Under the pieces are notes generated by a model. It was not told the origin of the DNA and did no database searches. It was given only the letters and a program-made list of their open reading frames with translations. 38,781 nucleotides of DNA from an uncultured Pelagibacteraceae bacterium (GTDB lineage: Bacteria; Pseudomonadota; Alphaproteobacteria; Pelagibacterales; Pelagibacteraceae), in assembly GCA_902572515.1 (NCBI GenBank), contig CACGGJ010000011.1, positions 1 through 38,781 of the forward strand, given 5' to 3'. The first letter of the stretch is position 1. The number at the start of each line of letters is the position of its first letter. The translations under genes and the position numbers were made by a program. Positions 3,271 through 38,747 of the stretch are shown piece after piece.

Positions 3271-3948
3271 TTAAGATTTAGATTTAAAGATGTGACTAAA
3301 TACACCTGACCAGACTAGTTCATAACTAAAATTACTCAAATATTTGTATACCCCACTATTTTTTATTTCCTTTTCATGAATTTCTATACAAATTAATTCT
3401 GGTTTAAATTTTTCAATAGTAAATCCTTTTAGTACTCTCAAATCAGCACCCTCAACATCTATATCTAGTAAGTCTATTTTTTTATCAGTTAATTTTGTTT
3501 TTTCTAAAATAGTATCTAATGTTAAAGATTTTATTATAGATTTTTTAATATTACCTTGAAAAGCTATTTTTGCCTGAAATTCATCAATTGTGCTAAGTTG
3601 ACTTAACGCTTTTTGATAAAACATTTTGGTCACTCCATTTGTATCTGAAACTGCACAATTTAAGTTAATATCATCTGGTCTTAAATAGTTAAATAAATCA
3701 ATGCTAAACTGGTGAATATCTATATTAATACCTGACCATCCATTATTATGTAAAAGATATGTGTTGTTTCTATGTATTGGGTGATAACAACCTACATCTA
3801 TATAAAAACCATTATTTTTTTTTCTAAAATATTCAACTATAAAAAAATCTTCACCATCCATAGAATAAGATTTTTTTTTAATAAAGTGTTTATGTTTTAA
3901 ATAAATATTATGAAATATATGAATTTTTTTTTTAAGATTGCTTAACAT
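3271..3948 (-). CDS. FkbM family SAM-dependent methyltransferase
   Basis: 225 residues. FkbM-type enzymes O-methylate sugars or other polar groups using S-adenosylmethionine. The SAM-binding glycine-loop equivalent is YIDVGCYHP (about 49-57), preceded by the family's 'GEDFFI' start region (32-37). The second signature, LLDIDVEGADLRVLKGF, lies in the C-terminal third, followed by the ELICIEIHE strand. Length is normal for the short FkbM forms. It follows folD by 16 bp on the same strand. In marine bacteria such genes often act on surface glycans, but no glycan cluster is present here, so the target is unknown. Confidence 0.85.
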   Translation of the reverse strand: MLSNLKKKIHIFHNIYLKHKHFIKKKSYSMDGEDFFIVEYFRKKNNGFYIDVGCYHPIHRNNTYLLHNNGWSGINIDIHQFSIDLFNYLRPDDINLNCAVSDTNGVTKMFYQKALSQLSTIDEFQAKIAFQGNIKKSIIKSLTLDTILEKTKLTDKKIDLLDIDVEGADLRVLKGFTIEKFKPELICIEIHEKEIKNSGVYKYLSNFSYELVWSGVFSHIFKSKS

Positions 3949-3964
3949 TAAATAATGTCAAATA

Positions 3965-4810
3965 TTATAATTGTGATCTTTTAAAACACTCAATAGTATT
4001 TTTTAATAAACAGGCAATTGTCATTGGACCTACACCGCCTGGAACTGGTGTAAGTGCTTTTGCATTTTTTGAAACTTCATCAAAATGAACATCACCAACT
4101 ATACCGTTGTCAGTTTTATTTATACCAACATCAATAACAATAGCATCTTTTTTAACCCAATCTCCTCTAACAAGTTCGGGTATACCTACAGCTGCAACAA
4201 TTATATCTGCCTCTAAACATTCAGCTTTTAAATCTTTAGTTTTTGAATGAGTTATAGTTACGGTACAATTTTCTTTTAAAAGAAGTTGTGTCATTGGTTT
4301 CCCATTTAAATTTGATCTACCCACAACCACAGCTTTTTTACCACTTAAATTAGGTTCAATCTTTTTTATCAACAAATAACATCCAAGGGGAGTACAAGGT
4401 ATCGAACTTTCATAACCAGATGAAAGATTGCCTACATTCATTGGATGAAATCCATCTACGTCCTTTGAGGGAACAATAGCTTCTATTACCTTCTGCTTAT
4501 CAATATGCTTAGGTAAAGGAAGTTGAACTAAAATTCCTGAAACAGTTTCATCGCTGTTTAGTTCTTGAATTTTTTCTAGAACAGTCTTTTCTTCAACTGA
4601 GTCTGGATATTTAATTACTTCAGATTTTAATCCCACCTCATTTGCTGACTTCTCTTTATTTCTTACATAAATCTGACTAGGTGTTAAATCACCAATCAGT
4701 ATTACTGTTAAACCTGGTACTTTATTATGTTTTGATTTTAACTCTGCAACTTCTTCCTTTAACTCTGCTCTTAATTCTGCTGCTGCTTTTTTTCCATCAA
4801 TTAAAATCAT
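3965..4810 (-). CDS. folD: Bifunctional methylenetetrahydrofolate dehydrogenase/cyclohydrolase FolD
   Basis: FolD interconverts 5,10-methylene-, 5,10-methenyl- and 10-formyl-tetrahydrofolate using NADP in the cytosol, feeding purine and formyl-methionine synthesis. The 281-residue length is standard. Visible signatures are the catalytic Tyr48/Lys52 in SQIYVRNKEKSANEVG, QLPLPKH (97-102), the active-site Asp119 in DVDGFHP, and the NADP-binding VVGRSNLNGKP (162-172). The C-terminal PVPGGVGPMT block is complete. It follows yggT by 9 bp, within the hemC-to-AEC run. It links to purH in the same window, which consumes 10-formyl-tetrahydrofolate. Confidence 0.97.
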   Translation of the reverse strand: MILIDGKKAAAELRAELKEEVAELKSKHNKVPGLTVILIGDLTPSQIYVRNKEKSANEVGLKSEVIKYPDSVEEKTVLEKIQELNSDETVSGILVQLPLPKHIDKQKVIEAIVPSKDVDGFHPMNVGNLSSGYESSIPCTPLGCYLLIKKIEPNLSGKKAVVVGRSNLNGKPMTQLLLKENCTVTITHSKTKDLKAECLEADIIVAAVGIPELVRGDWVKKDAIVIDVGINKTDNGIVGDVHFDEVSKNAKALTPVPGGVGPMTIACLLKNTIECFKRSQL

Positions 4811-7812: not shown

Positions 7813-7839
7813 AAAAAATTATTTCTTACTTGTATAAAG

Positions 7840-7849
7840 ATTGTACAAT
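7840..7849. promoter_or_regulatory. Palindrome in the hemC/tsaD divergent promoter region
   Basis: The 54 bp between the divergent hemC and tsaD starts contain the perfect 10-bp palindrome ATTGTACAAT. Its right half includes TACAAT (7844-7849), a possible -10 for tsaD that would put a start site about 10 nt before the ATG. No good -35 is visible on either strand. It may be an operator, or chance in AT-rich DNA. Confidence 0.25.
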
Positions 7850-7866
7850 TATTAAAAACTATTTGA

Positions 7867-30840: not shown

Positions 30841-31246
30841 AGTTTTAGGAAAATATATTAAAGATTTATCTAGCGAAACAAAAGATGTTGAAACATACTT
30901 ATTTGTTAAAGAATATATTTCAAAATACCAGTTAAGTATTGATATAAATTCACGCCCGTTAAAAAATAAACTTATAGAAATAAACACCACCCTTAAGTTT
31001 GAGGATAAAAGCGAAAATGAAAAAAAATCGTATTTTGAAATTATCTTTGCAACAATAATTCAAACAGTTGAAGAAATTAAAGAAAAAAAAGAAATGGAAA
31101 AAATTATTTTATGCGATGTGCAAATAGAAATATACCCAGACTTAGAAAAAGCTTTGCTTAACCTTCTTCATGGTTCAGGCTATCCTAATGTAAAGTTTGA
31201 AAAGAAGGTTGACTTCGAAAAATTATACAATGAAAGACTAAATTAA
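30818..31246 (+). CDS. secB: Protein-export chaperone SecB
   Basis: 142 residues. SecB holds unfolded preproteins and delivers them to SecA. The family features are visible though divergent: VLGKYIKDLSSETKD near the start, INTTLKFEDKSEN in the first third, and C-terminal YPDLEKALLNLLHGSGYPNVKFEKKVDFEKLY. Position between fxsA and dnaQ agrees with other alphaproteobacteria. Two ATGs are possible (30818 and 30824); the first is given. The gene overlaps fxsA by 23 bp in another frame, and its last 4 bp overlap convergent dnaQ. Confidence 0.88.
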   Translation: MIMTKKYKVLGKYIKDLSSETKDVETYLFVKEYISKYQLSIDINSRPLKNKLIEINTTLKFEDKSENEKKSYFEIIFATIIQTVEEIKEKKEMEKIILCDVQIEIYPDLEKALLNLLHGSGYPNVKFEKKVDFEKLYNERLN

Positions 31247-31905
31247 AAATAATTTTTTTTTAATTTGCTTTTTAAATATTCTCTATGATCACTAAGTTCC
31301 TTTGCATTTGGTTTAATAATTTTTTTATAGTACGATTTATCTCCATAGTTTCTATCAATAGTGCTTTCATTTTGAATTTGAAAATCTAAAGTTGGTTCTT
31401 TTTGATCAATTAAATTAATATAAACTTTTGCTAACAAATCACAATCCATCAGGGCTGTGTGATTTTTTCTTCTAGAATTATCAACCCCGTATCTTTTACA
31501 CAAAGCATCGAGACTTACCGACGAACCAGGAAATTTATTTCTTGCTAAAATGAGTGTATCTACTATTTCATTATCTAAATTTTTTTTACCAATTAAACCA
31601 AGCTCATTATTCAGGTGCGCAATATCAAATTCAGCATTATGAATGATTAACCTTTTGTTCTTTATAAAATTTAAAAATTCCTCTTTAATTTCTTTAAATT
31701 TTTTTTTATCTAACAAAAATTCATCTGTATACCCATGAATTGATAAAGCTTTTTCTGATACTTTTCTGCCTGGGTTTAAGTAACAATGAAATTTGTTTTG
31801 TGTTGGCACCAAGTCGTCTAGCTCTATACAGCCTATTTCAACAATTCTATGTCCTTCTTTAACTGATATGCCGGTAGTTTCAGTATCTAAAACGATTTCT
31901 TTCAT
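31243..31905 (-). CDS. dnaQ: DNA polymerase III epsilon subunit DnaQ (proofreading exonuclease)
   Basis: 220 residues. DnaQ is the 3'-5' proofreading subunit. The DEDDh exonuclease motifs are intact: ExoI VLDTETTG with Asp7 and Glu9, ExoII HNAEFDIAHLN, and ExoIII HTALMDCDLLAKVY. The C-terminal tail, which binds the polymerase alpha subunit, is shortish but present. The stop side overlaps secB by 4 bp (convergent) and the start overlaps the coaE end by 4 bp. Confidence 0.96.
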   Translation of the reverse strand: MKEIVLDTETTGISVKEGHRIVEIGCIELDDLVPTQNKFHCYLNPGRKVSEKALSIHGYTDEFLLDKKKFKEIKEEFLNFIKNKRLIIHNAEFDIAHLNNELGLIGKKNLDNEIVDTLILARNKFPGSSVSLDALCKRYGVDNSRRKNHTALMDCDLLAKVYINLIDQKEPTLDFQIQNESTIDRNYGDKSYYKKIIKPNAKELSDHREYLKSKLKKNYF

Positions 31906-32474
31906 TTATTAATTTCTTCTAAAACTTTTTTTATACTTATTTTAACAGATGTTTTTGTAAAATCGTTCTTAATTATAAAATTTGCTTTTGTTTTTTTATA
32001 ATCAATTGGTAATTGAATTTTTTTGAATTTTTTAAAAAGTTTGCTATTAAAATTTTTTCTTTTCATTAATTTTTTTAAAACATCTGATTTTTTAGAATCT
32101 ATAAATACTAAGATATCTCCTTTTTTGTTAAGTTTGTTTTCTAACAGCAGAGGAATGTCTAACACTACAAATTTTTTATTTTTATTTTTTTTTAAAAATA
32201 ATTTCATTTGTTTTCGAACTTCTAAGTGAACAATATTAATAATTTTTTTTAAGTTATTTTTGTTACTTAATATTGCTATACTTATTTCGTTTTTATCTAT
32301 TGGAAATTTAGATATATATCTTGGTAATTTTTTTTTTAATATATTAAAAATTTTTTTATTTTTTTTATAAATTTTTGATACTTCACTATCTGCATTAAAT
32401 ACTGGATATCCAAAATTCTTTGCTACATAGCTTTTTCCCGAACCTATATCTCCTAAAATTCCTATTCTTATCAT
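31902..32474 (-). CDS. coaE: Dephospho-CoA kinase CoaE
   Basis: 190 residues from the ATG at 32474; a TTG one codon upstream would add a single residue. CoaE phosphorylates dephospho-CoA, the last step of CoA synthesis. The P-loop GDIGSGKS (8-15) is followed by the dephospho-CoA site region PVFNADSEV, and VVLDIPLLLENK is the conserved central block. Lysine content is unusually high. The start overlaps the aroE stop (TGATG), so it is coupled to aroE. Confidence 0.95.
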   Translation of the reverse strand: MIRIGILGDIGSGKSYVAKNFGYPVFNADSEVSKIYKKNKKIFNILKKKLPRYISKFPIDKNEISIAILSNKNNLKKIINIVHLEVRKQMKLFLKKNKNKKFVVLDIPLLLENKLNKKGDILVFIDSKKSDVLKKLMKRKNFNSKLFKKFKKIQLPIDYKKTKANFIIKNDFTKTSVKISIKKVLEEINK

Positions 32475-33313
32475 CAATCTAATAATTTAATTACTTCTTC
32501 ATCAATAGTTGGACTGACGCCTGTCCACATTTTAAAAGCTAAATGAGCTTGCCATAAAAACATCATTTTACCATTCATTGTCCTGTTTCCTCTAATTCTA
32601 GCATCTTTAAGAAAATTTGTTTCTTTAGGATTGTAAATTAAATCATAAAACAAGACATCTTTTTTGTTTTTATAATCACTAAAATCAAAATTTAATTTTT
32701 CATCTTTTGTCAGACCCACGCTGGTTGTATTTATTATTAAATCACATAATTCACTTTTTTTTTCCCAATCTATAATTTCGATTGTATCTTTTTTCATTTG
32801 ATAAATGCCAAGGGCTTTATCCCAGAATTTTTTTAACTCTTCCGCCTTACTCCGTGTTCTGTTAGACAAATAAATCTTTTCTGCTCCATCCACTTTTATT
32901 AAAGTGGACAAAATTGAAGGTGTGACACCTCCTGCTCCGATAATTAAAATTTTTTTATCTTTACAATCCCAGTCATTTTCTTCCAAGCTTATTTCAAAGC
33001 CCTGTTGATCTGTATTATATCCAACAACCTTTTCATTTTCTTTTACTAATGTATTTACGGACTTAGTAAATTGAACTTCATACGGGGCTGTATCTATAAA
33101 ATTAAAGATTTCCCTTTTAAAAGGAACGGTTACATTAACTCCTTTAACTTCATCATTCTTAATTTGCTCAACAATTTTTTTTAAATCCTTTTTCTCTACT
33201 TTTTTTTTTTCATAAATTGAGTCAAAAAATCTATATTTTTTAAACCAATAATTATGCAACAGTGGAGATAAAGAATGTGCTATTGGATTACCAATTACCA
33301 AATATTTATTCAT
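32474..33313 (-). CDS. aroE: Shikimate dehydrogenase AroE
   Basis: 279 residues. AroE reduces 3-dehydroshikimate with NADPH in aromatic amino acid synthesis. SHSLSP-equivalent AHSLSPLLHNYWF (12-24) binds shikimate; the catalytic Lys66 lies in NVTVPFKRE and Asp102 in GYNTDQQGF. The nucleotide-binding IIGAGGVTPSIL and the NRTRSKAEEL motif are present, the latter typical of NADP preference. Its start overlaps maf by 8 bp. Confidence 0.97.
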   Translation of the reverse strand: MNKYLVIGNPIAHSLSPLLHNYWFKKYRFFDSIYEKKKVEKKDLKKIVEQIKNDEVKGVNVTVPFKREIFNFIDTAPYEVQFTKSVNTLVKENEKVVGYNTDQQGFEISLEENDWDCKDKKILIIGAGGVTPSILSTLIKVDGAEKIYLSNRTRSKAEELKKFWDKALGIYQMKKDTIEIIDWEKKSELCDLIINTTSVGLTKDEKLNFDFSDYKNKKDVLFYDLIYNPKETNFLKDARIRGNRTMNGKMMFLWQAHLAFKMWTGVSPTIDEEVIKLLD

Positions 33314-33893
33314 AATTTTTTAAATAATCTTTAATTTTGTCAATAGGAAGGCCCATAATTGTATTCTCGTTTCCTTCAATTTTTGAGAACAAATGTCTGC
33401 CCTCACCTTCAATTTGATAAACATTATAAGCATATAGTGCTTCATCAGATATTTTGTTTAAATAATTCTTTAGCTCATCTTCAGTAAAATTTTTCATAGT
33501 TAATTTTGCCTTATCAGTATAGTTCCAAATCATTGATCCATTTTTTGATATGCAAACAGAACTAATTAATAAATGTGATTTACCATTAAGTTTTCTTAAT
33601 ATTTGAATTGCCTCTTCTCTGTTTTCTGGCTTAGATATTAATTCCCCCTCCAAATCTATCACGCTATCTGCTCCTAAAACTATTTTATCATTATTTTTCA
33701 TACTAACTTTGTTTGCTTTCAATTCGGCTAGGTTTTTTGAAATTATTTCTGAGCTTGCTTGTTCTTTTAACAGACTGTCTTTAACAGGATCTTCGTCTAC
33801 GTTTGATAGCTCAACAACACACTCTATATCGTTTTTATTTAAAATATCTTTTCTAACTTTGCTTTTAGACGCAAGAATGATTTTATTTTGCAT
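33306..33893 (-). CDS. maf: Maf family nucleoside triphosphate pyrophosphatase
   Basis: 195 residues. Maf proteins hydrolyse non-canonical or modified nucleotides such as dTTP/UTP analogues. The N-terminal signature ILASKSKVRKDIL matches the family (ASxSxxRxxIL), and GADSVIDLEGELISKPENREEA contains the catalytic Asp region. IEGEGRHLFSKIEGNENTIMGLP is the usual C-terminal motif. The gene overlaps ppsR by 11 bp at its start and aroE by 8 bp at its end. Confidence 0.95.
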   Translation of the reverse strand: MQNKIILASKSKVRKDILNKNDIECVVELSNVDEDPVKDSLLKEQASSEIISKNLAELKANKVSMKNNDKIVLGADSVIDLEGELISKPENREEAIQILRKLNGKSHLLISSVCISKNGSMIWNYTDKAKLTMKNFTEDELKNYLNKISDEALYAYNVYQIEGEGRHLFSKIEGNENTIMGLPIDKIKDYLKNYE

Positions 33894-34710
33894 TATTTAA
33901 ATATATTTCATGAATTTTAATTATTGAAGCAGCGGTTTCTTCAACTGACTTCCTTGTTACATCTATAAGGGGCCATTTATATTTTTGAAATGTTTTTTTA
34001 GCTTCTAATACCTCTTTTTTTATATTTTCTAAATCTGTGTATTGTATATTCTCTGTCTCTTTTAAAGAATTCATTCTATTTTTTCTCAAATCAGCCAGTC
34101 TTTCAGGTTCAGTACTTAGTCCTACTACACAAGCCATTTTTGGATTTTTTTTAAGATTTTCAGGCAATGAATTTTCGTTTACTAGAGGAATGTTTGATGT
34201 CTTAAATCCTTTATTGGCCAAATAAATAGATGTGGGTGTCTTGCTTGTTCTGCTTACTCCAACAAGAATAATGTCTGATTTATGTACTTCATTTATTAAA
34301 TTTCCGTCATCATGATTCATCGTAAATTGAATTGCTTCAATTCTGTCATAATACTCTTCATTCAATATATGTTGACCGCTTGGCTCGTGAGTTGCCTTCT
34401 GATTAAGAATTTTTGAAAAGTTTAAAATCAAATTTCCCAAAACACCAAAACATGGAATATTTTTATCCTCACTCGCGTTCGCAAGGTATTTGGCTAAGTT
34501 GTTGTCCACGATTGTATATAAAATTATTGAATTTTCATTTTTTTTTGCATCCTCTAGAATTTTTAAAATTTGATTTTCTGTTCTTGTAAAAGAGTAAGAA
34601 TGAACCTTATATTCTATATTCAAAAATTGAGCCTTCAGAGCTAAAAATATTCTATCTAAGGTCTCACCCGTTGAGTCAGAGATTAAATATATTTGATATG
34701 TATTACTCAT
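33883..34710 (-). CDS. ppsR: Pyruvate phosphate dikinase/PEP synthase regulatory protein (DUF299)
   Basis: 275 residues. The family has ADP-dependent kinase and Pi-dependent phosphorylase activity on PPDK or PEP synthase, switching them off and on. Conserved parts are ISDSTGETLDRI (10-21), the P-loop GVSRTSKT (151-158), and the C-terminal RKSVEETAASIIKIH. The orthologue in Rickettsia (RP001) and Caulobacter flanks the replication origin opposite hemE, exactly as here. Whether it acts on PPDK or PEP synthase cannot be told. Confidence 0.93.
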   Translation of the reverse strand: MSNTYQIYLISDSTGETLDRIFLALKAQFLNIEYKVHSYSFTRTENQILKILEDAKKNENSIILYTIVDNNLAKYLANASEDKNIPCFGVLGNLILNFSKILNQKATHEPSGQHILNEEYYDRIEAIQFTMNHDDGNLINEVHKSDIILVGVSRTSKTPTSIYLANKGFKTSNIPLVNENSLPENLKKNPKMACVVGLSTEPERLADLRKNRMNSLKETENIQYTDLENIKKEVLEAKKTFQKYKWPLIDVTRKSVEETAASIIKIHEIYLNNAK

Positions 34711-34977
34711 GAATAAATTGTTAATAAATTTGTAATATTTTAATTAAATTACACAATTTAAAATTTTTTAAATTAACCTTGTAAAAACTGCTATTTATTA
34801 ACATTAATAATAAATAGGGTAAAACAATCCACAAAAATTAATATGGTTAAAAAAGCTTCATTTTAAACAATTTTATTTAAATAACTTGTTGGTAAATTGT
34901 GAATATAATGTTTATAAAAATTAATCACCTTTATTCACAAGATATATTACAACTACAATAATTAATAATACTTATTT
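34711..34977. other. Putative replication origin (oriC) between ppsR and hemE
   Basis: This 267-bp segment has no gene and is the largest gap in the window. It contains TTATTCACA (34931-34939), a full match to the DnaA-box pattern TTATNCACA, and an opposite-strand box in TTGTGAATA (34897-34905); together they form a perfect 9-bp inverted pair (34897-34905 and 34932-34940). A weaker CAATCCACA is at 34825-34833. An AT-only stretch and a 10-bp inverted repeat lie to the left. Genes point away on both sides. The position between DUF299 and hemE equals Cori of Caulobacter and the Rickettsia origin. Confidence 0.7.
34791..34817. repeat. 10-bp perfect inverted repeat inside the putative oriC
   Basis: CTATTTATTA (34791-34800) and TAATAAATAG (34808-34817) are exact reverse complements separated by 7 nt. 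They could form a hairpin, bind a dimeric protein, or mark an unwinding site. No T-tract follows, so a terminator is unlikely. Confidence 0.6.
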
Positions 34978-35982
34978 ATGAAACCTTTAACCAAAGTAAT
35001 AACTAACAAAGATACTTCGTTCAATCCTATATGGATTATGAGACAGGCTGGTAGATATTTACCAGAATTTAGAGAAATAAGAAAAAAAAATCCTAATTTT
35101 ATTAATTTGTGTTTAAATGATGATTTATCTTCGGAAATAACTCTTCAACCATTAAAAAGATTTGATTTGGATGCTGCAATAATATTTTCAGATATCTTAA
35201 TGCTTCCTTATGGATTAGGTCAAAAAGTAGAATTTGAAAAAAACTTTGGACCAAAATTAGGGGAATTAAATCTAAATGAAATTGCTAAGACTGATGAAAT
35301 TGACTTTGTAGAGAAAATACACCGTGTGTATAAAGCATTAAAAAAAGTTAGCTCAGACTCTACTCTAAAAAATAAAAACACTATTGGATTTACTGGTGCT
35401 CCATGGACATTATTAGTTTATATGATTAATCAACAATCACCTAAAAAAAATTTAAAAAAAGATTTTTTTAAAGACGAGTTTTTAATAAACAGAATATTAT
35501 TAATTATTGAAAAATTTTTAAAAGTTCATGTAAAAAATCAAATTGATAACGGTGCTAATGTAATTCAAATTTTTGATAGTTGGGCAGGTTTATTAGAGGA
35601 AAAAGATTTACCCAACTATGTTTATTCTCCAACCTTAAATTTAGTAAATTATGTAAAATCTTTAAATGTGCCGGTTATATGCTTTCCTAGAGAAATTAAA
35701 AATTATAAAGAGTTTTGTGATATTGTTAAACCTGATGCTGTTAGTATTGACTATAATGTTGATCCAAAAAAAATACTTAGAGATATAAGCATACCCATAC
35801 AAGGAGGCTTAGACCCAAAAATTTTATTAACTGATAAAGAAACATTGAAAAAAGAAGCCTTTAATTATTTAGAAATTTTTCGAGATCATCCGTATATATT
35901 TAATCTCGGTCATGGTATTTTGCCTGAAACAGATCCAGAAATGGTTGAAAATTTAATTAAAATTGTAAAAGATTTTAAATGA
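34978..35982 (+). CDS. hemE: Uroporphyrinogen decarboxylase HemE
   Basis: 334 residues. HemE decarboxylates uroporphyrinogen III to coproporphyrinogen III. The N-terminal WIMRQAGRYLPEFRE (19-33) with the substrate-binding arginines, then FSDILMLPYGLG and GFTGAPWTLLVYM, are the family signatures. The C-terminal FNLGHGILPETDPE is also present. A candidate -10 TACAAT (34954-34959) gives a leader near 12 nt; its -35 position would overlap a DnaA-box-like sequence. The stop overlaps hemH by 4 bp (ATGA). Confidence 0.98.
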   Translation: MKPLTKVITNKDTSFNPIWIMRQAGRYLPEFREIRKKNPNFINLCLNDDLSSEITLQPLKRFDLDAAIIFSDILMLPYGLGQKVEFEKNFGPKLGELNLNEIAKTDEIDFVEKIHRVYKALKKVSSDSTLKNKNTIGFTGAPWTLLVYMINQQSPKKNLKKDFFKDEFLINRILLIIEKFLKVHVKNQIDNGANVIQIFDSWAGLLEEKDLPNYVYSPTLNLVNYVKSLNVPVICFPREIKNYKEFCDIVKPDAVSIDYNVDPKKILRDISIPIQGGLDPKILLTDKETLKKEAFNYLEIFRDHPYIFNLGHGILPETDPEMVENLIKIVKDFK

Positions 35983-36974
35983 TTGAAAAAAATCACCCAC
36001 CCATTAAATACGGTAACACAGGAGTACTTATAGTTAATTTGGGCACACCTGATTCTACTAATTGGTTTGATATAAGAAAATATTTAAAAGAATTTCTCTC
36101 TGACAGAAGAGTAATTGAAGTAAATCCTTTAATTTGGCAAATAATTTTGAATTTGTTCATTTTAAATTTTAGACCCTCTAAAACTGCTAAAGCTTATAAA
36201 GAGATTTGGATGAAAGATGAAAATATATCGCCACTTCTTTATTATACAAAAAAGCAAAGTGAGAAAATTTCAAATTCACTATCAAAAGAAAATATTATCA
36301 TAGAGTTTGCTATGAGATATGGAAATCCGAGCATCAATAGTAAAATTCATAAATTGCATAAAATGGGTTGTGAAAATTTGGTGATACTTCCTCTTTATCC
36401 CCAATATGCAGCAGCTACAACAGCAACAGTTTGCGACGAGGTATACAGGACTTTAATGAAAATGAGGTGGCAACCTTCTTTAAAAATTATTCCTCACTAC
36501 GAATCTAACCCACTTTACATTGATGCCCTCGTTAATTCGATCAATAAAAAAATAAATGAAATTAATTGGAAACCAGACCTAATTATAGCCTCTTATCACG
36601 GGATACCAAAAAAATATTTTGATAGAGGCGATCCTTACCATTGTTATTGTCATAAAACGACAAGACTTATTTCAGAAAAATTCACTTCAATTAAAATTAA
36701 AACTACCTTTCAGTCGAGATTTGGCCCACAAGAATGGCTTCAACCATATACTGATAAGACTTTAGAAAATTTACCCAAAGAGGGCGTTAAAAAAGTTCTT
36801 ACAATCTGTCCAGGATTTGCATCAGATTGTGTAGAGACTTTAGAAGAAATACAAATTCAAGCCAAAGAAAGTTTTTTAAATTCGGGTGGGGAAAATTTTG
36901 ATATGATCCCCTGTTTAAATGATAATAATGATCATATCGATTTACTTAAGTCCTTAATCGAAAAAAATATTTGA
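35979..36974 (+). CDS. hemH: Ferrochelatase HemH
   Basis: 331 residues. HemH inserts Fe2+ into protoporphyrin IX to give heme. Signatures: VLIVNLGTPDS near the start, LYPQYAAATTATV (139-151), the metal-binding His207 in SYHGIPKKYFDRGDPYHCYCHKT, FQSRFGPQEWLQPYTD, and CPGFASDCVETLEEI with the conserved acidic residues. It is translationally coupled to hemE and followed by hemJ after 3 bp. Confidence 0.97.
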   Translation: MIEKNHPPIKYGNTGVLIVNLGTPDSTNWFDIRKYLKEFLSDRRVIEVNPLIWQIILNLFILNFRPSKTAKAYKEIWMKDENISPLLYYTKKQSEKISNSLSKENIIIEFAMRYGNPSINSKIHKLHKMGCENLVILPLYPQYAAATTATVCDEVYRTLMKMRWQPSLKIIPHYESNPLYIDALVNSINKKINEINWKPDLIIASYHGIPKKYFDRGDPYHCYCHKTTRLISEKFTSIKIKTTFQSRFGPQEWLQPYTDKTLENLPKEGVKKVLTICPGFASDCVETLEEIQIQAKESFLNSGGENFDMIPCLNDNNDHIDLLKSLIEKNI

Positions 36975-36977
36975 TAT

Positions 36978-37412
36978 ATGAATTCGTATTTATTACTTAA
37001 ATCTTTGCATTTGATTGCAGTCATTTCTTGGATGGCTGGTCTTTTGTATCTTCCTAGAATTTTTGTTTACCATGTTGAAAATAAAGAGAAAAAAGAAACA
37101 ACAGATATTTTTGAAGTTATGGAAAGAAGGTTATTTTACTACATTATGCGTCCCGCAATGATTTTTACTTGGGTTTTTGGATTAGTATTAATTTATCTCA
37201 ATGGAATAGATATTTTCTCTCAATTATGGTTTCAGATAAAAATAGTCCTAATAATTTTATTATCAGCTTACAATGATTATTTAGGGAAATGTCTTGTTGC
37301 TCTAAAAAATTCTACAAACACAAGATCTGCAAAATTTTTTAGAATTATTAATGAAATACCCACGGTTATCTTAATTATCGTTGTTTTTTTAGCTATTTTT
37401 AAGCCAATCTAG
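36978..37412 (+). CDS. hemJ: Protoporphyrinogen IX oxidase HemJ
   Basis: 144 residues with about four membrane helices. HemJ oxidises protoporphyrinogen IX, the step before ferrochelatase, in bacteria lacking HemG or HemY. Conserved residues are His11 in KSLHLIAVISWMAGLLYLPRIFVYH and Lys88 in LWFQIKIVLIILLSAYND, both important in characterised HemJ. RIINEIPTVILIIVVFLAI closes the last helix. Clustering with hemE and hemH supports the call. rho follows after 66 bp. Confidence 0.95.
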   Translation: MNSYLLLKSLHLIAVISWMAGLLYLPRIFVYHVENKEKKETTDIFEVMERRLFYYIMRPAMIFTWVFGLVLIYLNGIDIFSQLWFQIKIVLIILLSAYNDYLGKCLVALKNSTNTRSAKFFRIINEIPTVILIIVVFLAIFKPI

Positions 37413-37451
37413 GGTTGAAATATCAACAGTAGTATATATATTATCAACATC

Positions 37452-37467
37452 TGATAAGTCCTTATCA
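37452..37467. repeat. Inverted repeat in the rho leader
   Basis: TGATAAG (37452-37458) and CTTATCA (37461-37467) flank a 2-nt centre, 12 nt before the rho ATG. A second small hairpin, GTTGA/TCAAC, lies near the start of the 66-bp gap. They may affect rho expression or be chance. Confidence 0.3.
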
Positions 37468-37478
37468 AAAAATTAATC

Positions 37479-38747
37479 ATGAACATACAAGAACTAAAAC
37501 TAAAATCATCTGAACAGCTAATTACTCAAGCAGAAGAGCTTGGTATAGAAAACGCTAGCACACTAAGAAAACAAGAAATACTTTTTGCAATCCTTAAAAA
37601 AGTTGCTGAAAAAGAGGAAATTACTGGCGTAGGTGTCCTGCAGTTATTACAAGATGGTTTTGGTTTTCTTAGGGCTATGGAGTCAAATTATCTGCCAGGA
37701 CCAGACGACATTTATGTTAGTCCAAGTCAAATTAGAAAATTTGGGTTAAGAACAGGAGATACCGTTGAGGGACCAGTAAGGGCCCCTAAAGAAGGAGAGA
37801 GATATTTTGCATTATTGCAAGTTAGCAAGATTAATTTTGAAGAACCAGAAAAAGCCAGACATAAAATTGCTTTTGACAACTTAACGCCGTTATATCCAGA
37901 TAAACAATTGGTGATGGAAGTTGAAACTACAAAGGTTGAAAAAAAACAAGATTTAACTCCAAGGCTAATTGATCTAGTTAGTCCAATCGGCAAAGGACAA
38001 AGATCGATAATTATTTCTCCACCTAAAGCTGGAAAAACAATGATTTTGCAAAGTATCGCAAACTCAATAGCTAAAAATTATCCAGAGTGTTACCTTATGG
38101 TATTGCTGATTGATGAGCGACCAGAAGAAGTAACTGACATGCAAAGAACTGTAAAAGGAGAAGTAATAAGCTCTACTTTTGATGAACCAGCTCAAAGACA
38201 CGTAGCAGTAGCGGAAATGGTTATTGAAAAAGCCAAAAGACTAACTGAACACAAAAAAGATGTTATTATATTATTAGACTCAATAACGAGATTAGGAAGA
38301 GCATATAACGCGGTTATACCAAGCTCAGGTAAAGTTCTAACAGGAGGTGTTGACGCAAATGCATTGCAGAGACCTAAAAGATTTTTTGGTGCTGCAAGAA
38401 ATATTGAAGAAGGTGGCTCATTAACAATTATATCTACAGCCTTGATTGATACAGGAAGTAGAATGGATGAAGTAATTTTTGAGGAATTTAAAGGAACTGG
38501 TAATAGTGAAACAATTTTAGATAGAAAAATTGCTGATAAAAGAATTTACCCCGCGATTGATATAACAAAATCAGGAACTAGAAGAGAAGAATTATTATTT
38601 GATAAAAATGATTTACAAAAAATGAATGTGCTAAGAAGAATAATTGCTCCAATGGGCACCATGGATGCTATAGAATTTATTAATTCAAAACTAAAAGATA
38701 CAAAAAATAATGCTGAATTTTTTAATTCAATGAACAAACCTTCGTAG
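37479..38747 (+). CDS. rho: Transcription termination factor Rho
   Basis: 422 residues, compact form without insertions. Rho is the hexameric RNA helicase that ends transcription at C-rich unstructured RNA. The N-terminal helical domain (1-48) and the OB-fold RNA-binding domain (about 50-120, [22 protein letters not shown]) are complete. The ATPase domain has the Walker A PPKAGKT (181-187), [25 protein letters not shown], the Q-loop/R-loop regions [22 protein letters not shown], and [15 protein letters not shown]. Gene order hemE-hemH-hemJ-rho matches other alphaproteobacterial origin regions. The last 34 bp of the window beyond it show nothing. Confidence 0.98.

Follow-up and report, generated by a model that had tools for sequence, protein, structure and literature searches.

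The 267-bp gap between the divergent genes ppsR and hemE, at positions 34711-34977 of the window, very probably serves as the replication origin (oriC) of a SAR11 chromosome, judging from its sequence and from those of its relatives. Few cell types in the ocean are as abundant as SAR11. The window is the whole stretch of DNA that was analysed, 38,781 nucleotides long, and represents contig C11 of a draft genome of 1,167,165 bases in 41 contigs. An initial annotation of the window had read the gap as oriC of a SAR11-type chromosome, and strand polarity and the conservation of DnaA boxes make this the best reading.

The gap and its flanking genes

34711-34977, unstranded: proposed oriC, the gap between divergent ppsR (DUF299) and hemE; 267 bp, GC 0.157
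33883-34710, minus strand: ppsR-like DUF299 gene (COG1806); Pfam PF03618, 2e-89
34978-35982, plus strand: hemE; Pfam PF01208, 3.3e-85

The gap is the longest between genes in the window, the next longest being 237 and 222 bp, in agreement with its initial description as the largest gene-free gap and AT-rich. The genes for about 3.5 kb on each side had been said to point away from it, and they do: all those at 31243-34710 run leftward and all those at 34978-38747 run rightward. Pfam matches identified Kinase-PPPase (DUF299), Maf, shikimate dehydrogenase, CoaE and an RNase_T exonuclease on the left, and hemE, ferrochelatase, UPF0093 and Rho on the right. An Rfam scan of the window returned one tRNA and nothing else. 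The GC content of the gap, 0.157, compares with 0.291 for the whole genome of the closed relative G020, so that its AT content lies above that of the genome; 1.65% of the 267-bp segments of G020 (8,000 masked bases included) have a GC content as low or lower, indicating that the gap is AT-rich and not extreme. In all 41 relatives, from four genera, in which hemE lies beside the gap, the gap measures 261-286 bp with a GC content of 0.13-0.26 (for L012 and L037 the start of hemE was obtained by extrapolation).

Origins bounded by hemE and a COG1806 gene are experimental in Caulobacter (Cori) and predicted in Rickettsia, as reported in the accessible text of PMC1914354. The Pfam matches for the two genes flanking the gap showed that the window has a boundary of this hemE/COG1806 type. 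The likeness to Cori and to the Rickettsia origin that the initial annotation had drawn from the flanking genes is a sound one: the divergent order is the same, and the gap shares with both origins its AT-richness relative to the genome and its DnaA boxes (PMC1914354, same text). It is shorter, with 267 bp against 404 bp in Caulobacter and 383-396 bp in Rickettsia according to that text. Because hemE-linked alphaproteobacterial origins are already known, the SAR11 gap would be a further member of the group and not a new type. We found no published description of a SAR11 oriC; subscription papers and DoriC may contain a prediction.

DnaA boxes in the gap

34931-34939, plus strand: main DnaA box TTATTCACA; identical in 79 of 80 close relatives, position kept in distant gaps
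34719-34727, minus strand: DnaA-box-like TTATTAACA, counted as TGTTAATAA; unchanged in 60 of 80 close relatives, the slot recurring in many distant gaps
34795-34803, plus strand: DnaA-box-like TTATTAACA; identical in 72 of 80 close relatives
34825-34833, plus strand: weak box-like CAATCCACA; identical in 67 of 80 close relatives, found in 1 of 43 distant gaps
34898-34906, minus strand: DnaA-box-like ATATTCACA, counted as TGTGAATAT, left arm of the inverted pair; identical in 59 of 80 close relatives
34909-34917, minus strand: DnaA-box-like TTATAAACA, counted as TGTTTATAA, 11 bp from the box at 34898; identical in 69 of 80 close relatives

The inverted pair, the main box TTATTCACA and the weak CAATCCACA that the initial annotation had described are all present where it placed them. 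The pair is a perfect one of 9 bp, formed by TTGTGAATA at 34897-34905 and TATTCACAA at 34932-34940, but it is incidental: the 291 bases examined around it contain 35 inverted pairs of at least 8 nt, some of them longer and perfect. We rejected the perfect pair as a functional element, since it is kept in only 25 of 80 close relatives. This low number arises because the outer bases of the pair vary; the boxes inside it are kept. The gap had also been said to contain very few boxes, which holds for the strict consensus TTATNCACA (one in the window) but not otherwise, because the box slots number about five, not two and a weak one, the box-like sites at 34719-34727, 34795-34803 and 34909-34917 having been overlooked. 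Matches to TTATCCACA with one mismatch number 16 across the window. The motifs of the window alone are weak evidence, and the case rests on comparison with relatives.

Conservation in close and distant relatives

The close set was drawn from the best 80 of 576 loci; L112, which ends before hemE, was excluded, and the remaining 79 and the window make up the 80. The closest named loci among these best 80 of 576 come from Pelagibacteraceae and Pelagibacterales single-cell genomes and MAGs, with DUF299 proteins 92-98% identical. The commonest letter had a mean frequency of 0.924 over the gap as a whole and of 0.978 in its most conserved 40 nt (34922-34961), compared with 0.819 for hemE third positions (first 100 codons, 78 sequences).

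The wider comparison covered 44 gaps from five genera, namely those of 41 relatives, the window, and two genomes of the fifth genus (L043 and L044), which were added by hand because hemE is not adjacent there. The strict published consensus TTATNCACA occurred 19 times, in 17 of the 44 gaps, against 1.1 expected from dinucleotide shuffles. A relaxed consensus, TTATNMACA, picked post hoc after the gaps had been inspected, occurred 114 times, in 43 of the 44, against 7.0 expected from such shuffles. Its commonest form was TTATTAACA (48 of 114), and the matches recurred at preferred offsets. Comparison across related genomes, which the initial annotation had proposed as a check, thus came out in favour of the boxes, which are kept in close and distant relatives.

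We scanned G020 end to end, minus 8,000 masked bases. With the relaxed box, a consensus chosen post hoc, the gap was the sole 300-bp cluster with more than two boxes (it has four), and it ranked first in the samples of G001 and G009 and tied in that of G158. With the strict patterns the gap of G020 was not outstanding, having one box where other 300-bp stretches have up to two.

Strict CtrA sites (TTAA-N7-TTAA) numbered 0 in the window gap and 19 in the 44 gaps (present in 16), against 10.9 in single-letter shuffles; the IHF site WATCAN5WTR was found 0 times in the window gap and 19 times in the 44 gaps, against 21.1 in shuffles. The window gap thus differs from the Caulobacter and Rickettsia origins in having neither a strict CtrA nor an IHF consensus, and also in that most of its boxes have drifted to TTATNAACA. 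Missing CtrA sites are not decisive for the type of origin, because relatives without them are reported in the accessible text of PMC1914354. GANTC is found 1706 times in G020, where roughly 3800-4000 would be expected, and 123 origin gaps together contain only 2; a CcrM homologue is present in SAR11 according to PMC3973325.

Strand polarity, GC skew and dnaA

The gap of G020 lies at 910,394-910,660. In a two-breakpoint fit to this genome, the gene strands placed the origin 0.6 kb from the gap, and third-position skew, corrected for gene direction, placed it 5.3 kb away. The cumulative GC skew has its minimum at 939 kb, about 29 kb off, in a flat, broad basin with near-equal lows at 882 and 909-910 kb, and reaches its maximum at 158 kb, roughly on the opposite side of the chromosome. 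The initial annotation had expected the skew minimum at the gap; the strand turning point of G020 does lie close to it, but the raw minimum does not. In three relatives of which about one third was sampled, the fits by gene strand and third-position skew fell 0.6 and 5.0 kb from the gap (G009), 39 and 157 kb from it (G001), and 119 and 19 kb from it (G158). The bootstrap intervals of the origin fits were tens of kb or wider in all four genomes. A skew shift at the locus is thus seen in G020 to within tens of kb, and more loosely in the sampled relatives. With the gap as origin, the leading strand would carry 64-72% of the genes. The arm fractions of the four relatives were 0.44-0.63; Pelagibacter ubique HTCC1062 is among the chromosomes whose arms look unequal by skew in the accessible part of PMC2099444.

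The cumulative GC skew of the window itself is lowest near 8 kb, away from the gap, where a second divergent strand switch lies at 7813-7866. A second origin at 882 kb of G020 was considered and rejected; a 357-aa open frame covers what had appeared to be a 969-bp gap.

The skew fits, being no sharper than tens of kb, and the raw lows of G020 at 882 and 939 kb would also agree with a true origin elsewhere within some tens of kb, the gap being a nearby DnaA-binding control site. We regard this as extremely improbable, given that no other 300-bp stretch of G020 holds more than two relaxed boxes and that the switch at 7813-7866 of the window, the apparent counterpart of the 882 kb low, leaves only 54 bp between ORFs.

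In all 11 single-contig relatives, dnaA points away from the gap and lies 61-72 kb from the DUF299 gene, on the DUF299 side in three (G001, G007 and G009) and on the opposite side in eight. These distances were taken from listed coordinates, that of G009 being measured across contig ends with a circle assumed. We infer that such changes of side at a similar distance fit inversions about an origin. The DnaA protein of the window's genome has its N-terminal, ATPase and DNA-binding domains. A dif search with an E. coli sequence as query gave no match better than 8 mismatches of 28. Near the skew maximum of G020, at about 153.2 kb (L132 13170-13236), there is a SAM-V riboswitch match.

A three-base register beside the main box

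34941-34970, minus strand (trio strand): DnaA-trio-like stretch, top strand GAT ATA TTA CAA CTA CAA TAA TTA ATA ATA; in three-base register across 44 gaps, with interruptions in the window's clade

DnaA-trios have a fixed middle base every three nucleotides and read TAG-like on the other strand, as described in the accessible parts of PMC8287927 and PMC10316083. A first CTA was found 4, 7, 10 or 13 nt past the main box in 40 of the 44 gaps, the exceptions being L032, L038, L039 and L042. Counted by phase after the last box, T occurred 21, 38 and 184 times in the 44 gaps (184 of 243 in one phase), and 13, 20 and 64 times in 18 dereplicated gaps (64 of 97), each with 0 of 5000 permutations reaching the observed bias. 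The outcome was unchanged when the best phase was allowed, and at twelve control positions the top share of one phase was 48 of 114. Since the gap sequences are related, these permutation results are not probabilities. A three-base register with a conserved middle base is what DnaA-trios predict from sequence.

The window itself reads ATA TTA CAA CTA; this CTA lies 13 nt past the box, which is in register, and 79 of 80 close relatives keep it. Of the 80 sequences, 73 have CAA as the third triplet after the spacer, and the published trio rule, which asks for a minimum of three uninterrupted trios no more than 16 nt from the box, failed at the main box of the window. In 31 of 42 gaps, the best forward match to a published-style rule lay where it was expected; on single gaps, the shuffle fraction was at most 0.05 in 20 of 42 and not significant in 22 of 42.

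The interrupting CAA and the failure of the published rule would be understandable if the gap were oriC and opened by its AT-richness, at the 3' end or elsewhere, and not by DnaA-trios, and in Thermotoga the box-proximal trio is merely supportive, according to the accessible part of PMC10316083. We consider this rather unlikely, because the register extends across 44 gaps and the CTA of the window is in register and almost invariably kept. If the gap is oriC, its opening is probably guided by trios.

Gaps without hemE or DUF299

In genus g2 the sole hemE match lies far from the gap, at 718 kb in G001 (locus L044) and 412 kb in G007 (L043), where the gaps are near 141 and 1,062 kb. The gap of both genomes still adjoins DUF299, and the next gene, 353 bp off, is rho. 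It carries TTATAAACA, then CTA ATA triplets. With an E value of about 1e-56, the hemE match of g2 is weaker than those of genus g1 (1e-81 and better), and that of G001 is close to the skew maximum. In G158, hemE is found in two overlapping pieces (C1:358209-359176), one with two stops, and the frame looks interrupted.

Sister family f2 provided the converse case. In all six genomes (G002, G004, G006, G010, G012 and G018), hemE and maf adjoin each other divergently, with 281-299 bp between their profile ends, and there was no DUF299 match among the six. The box-plus-triplet pattern was not found in the hemE-maf gap of five of them, and in the sixth it occurred only straddling the end of maf. 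Because hemE has left the locus in g2 and the DUF299 match is absent in f2, the gap may outlive either neighbour. In the origins of Wolbachia, Ehrlichia and Anaplasma, the hemE boundary is kept and the other neighbour differs, COG1253 replacing DUF299 (PMC1914354, accessible text), whereas in g2 hemE is gone and DUF299 stays.

Genomes from which hemE has departed are a natural experiment that separates an origin from a hemE promoter. The conserved elements might be the promoter and control region of hemE, and of the divergent ppsR, with no origin present. Divergent genes flank the gap, so promoters must be near, and one promoter-like sequence, TTCACA-17-AATAAT at 34934-34962, matches at 10 of 12 positions and overlaps the main box and the triplets. 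Promoter-like sites are not above shuffles, however (4 found against a mean of 6.4), and G001 and G007 keep the box and triplets though hemE is elsewhere, although the adjoining rho could use a promoter there. A promoter would also leave the DnaA-box enrichment, the three-base register and the polarity unexplained, and we consider this reading very unlikely. Origin and promoter roles may coexist in the gap.

A possible mechanism of initiation

We infer the weakness of the drifted boxes and the start of replication at the gap and, from established DnaA biology, also DnaA binding, filament growth and strand opening. DnaA would bind several box slots, mostly AT-drifted (TTATTAACA, TTATAAACA) and presumably weak. 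The one near-consensus box, TTATTCACA at 34931-34939, would anchor a DnaA-ATP filament, which would be guided by the trio-like triplets, in their three-base register, onto the minus strand of the AT-rich stretch next to the box (about 34941-34977), towards hemE. The duplex would then open at the AT-rich 3' end, helicase would be loaded, and forks would depart both ways.

This proposed arrangement resembles the basal unwinding system of Bacillus subtilis and other bacteria, with a box, a short spacer and triplets in a fixed register, CTA on the box strand being TAG opposite (PMC8287927, accessible text). It differs in that only one clear box lies by the triplets and that the triplets are interrupted in the window's clade. 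Predicted trios in Alphaproteobacteria are not new, because the tree in the accessible part of PMC8287927 marks all proteobacterial classes.

We tentatively propose, as a possibility that we do not favour over its opposite, a minimal SAR11 origin made of one good box, a trio-like stretch and AT-drifted boxes, with no recognisable CtrA or IHF site in this clade, from which it would follow that initiation depends on DnaA alone. Selection would then keep this module and not the boundary genes, and it would persist without hemE and perhaps, by gap length only, in f2. The triplet register hints, from sequence only, that bacteria of this order use the basal opening module. With the origin mapped and its sites named, growth could be estimated from origin-to-terminus read depth in metagenomes, and replication control would become testable in a streamlined cell.
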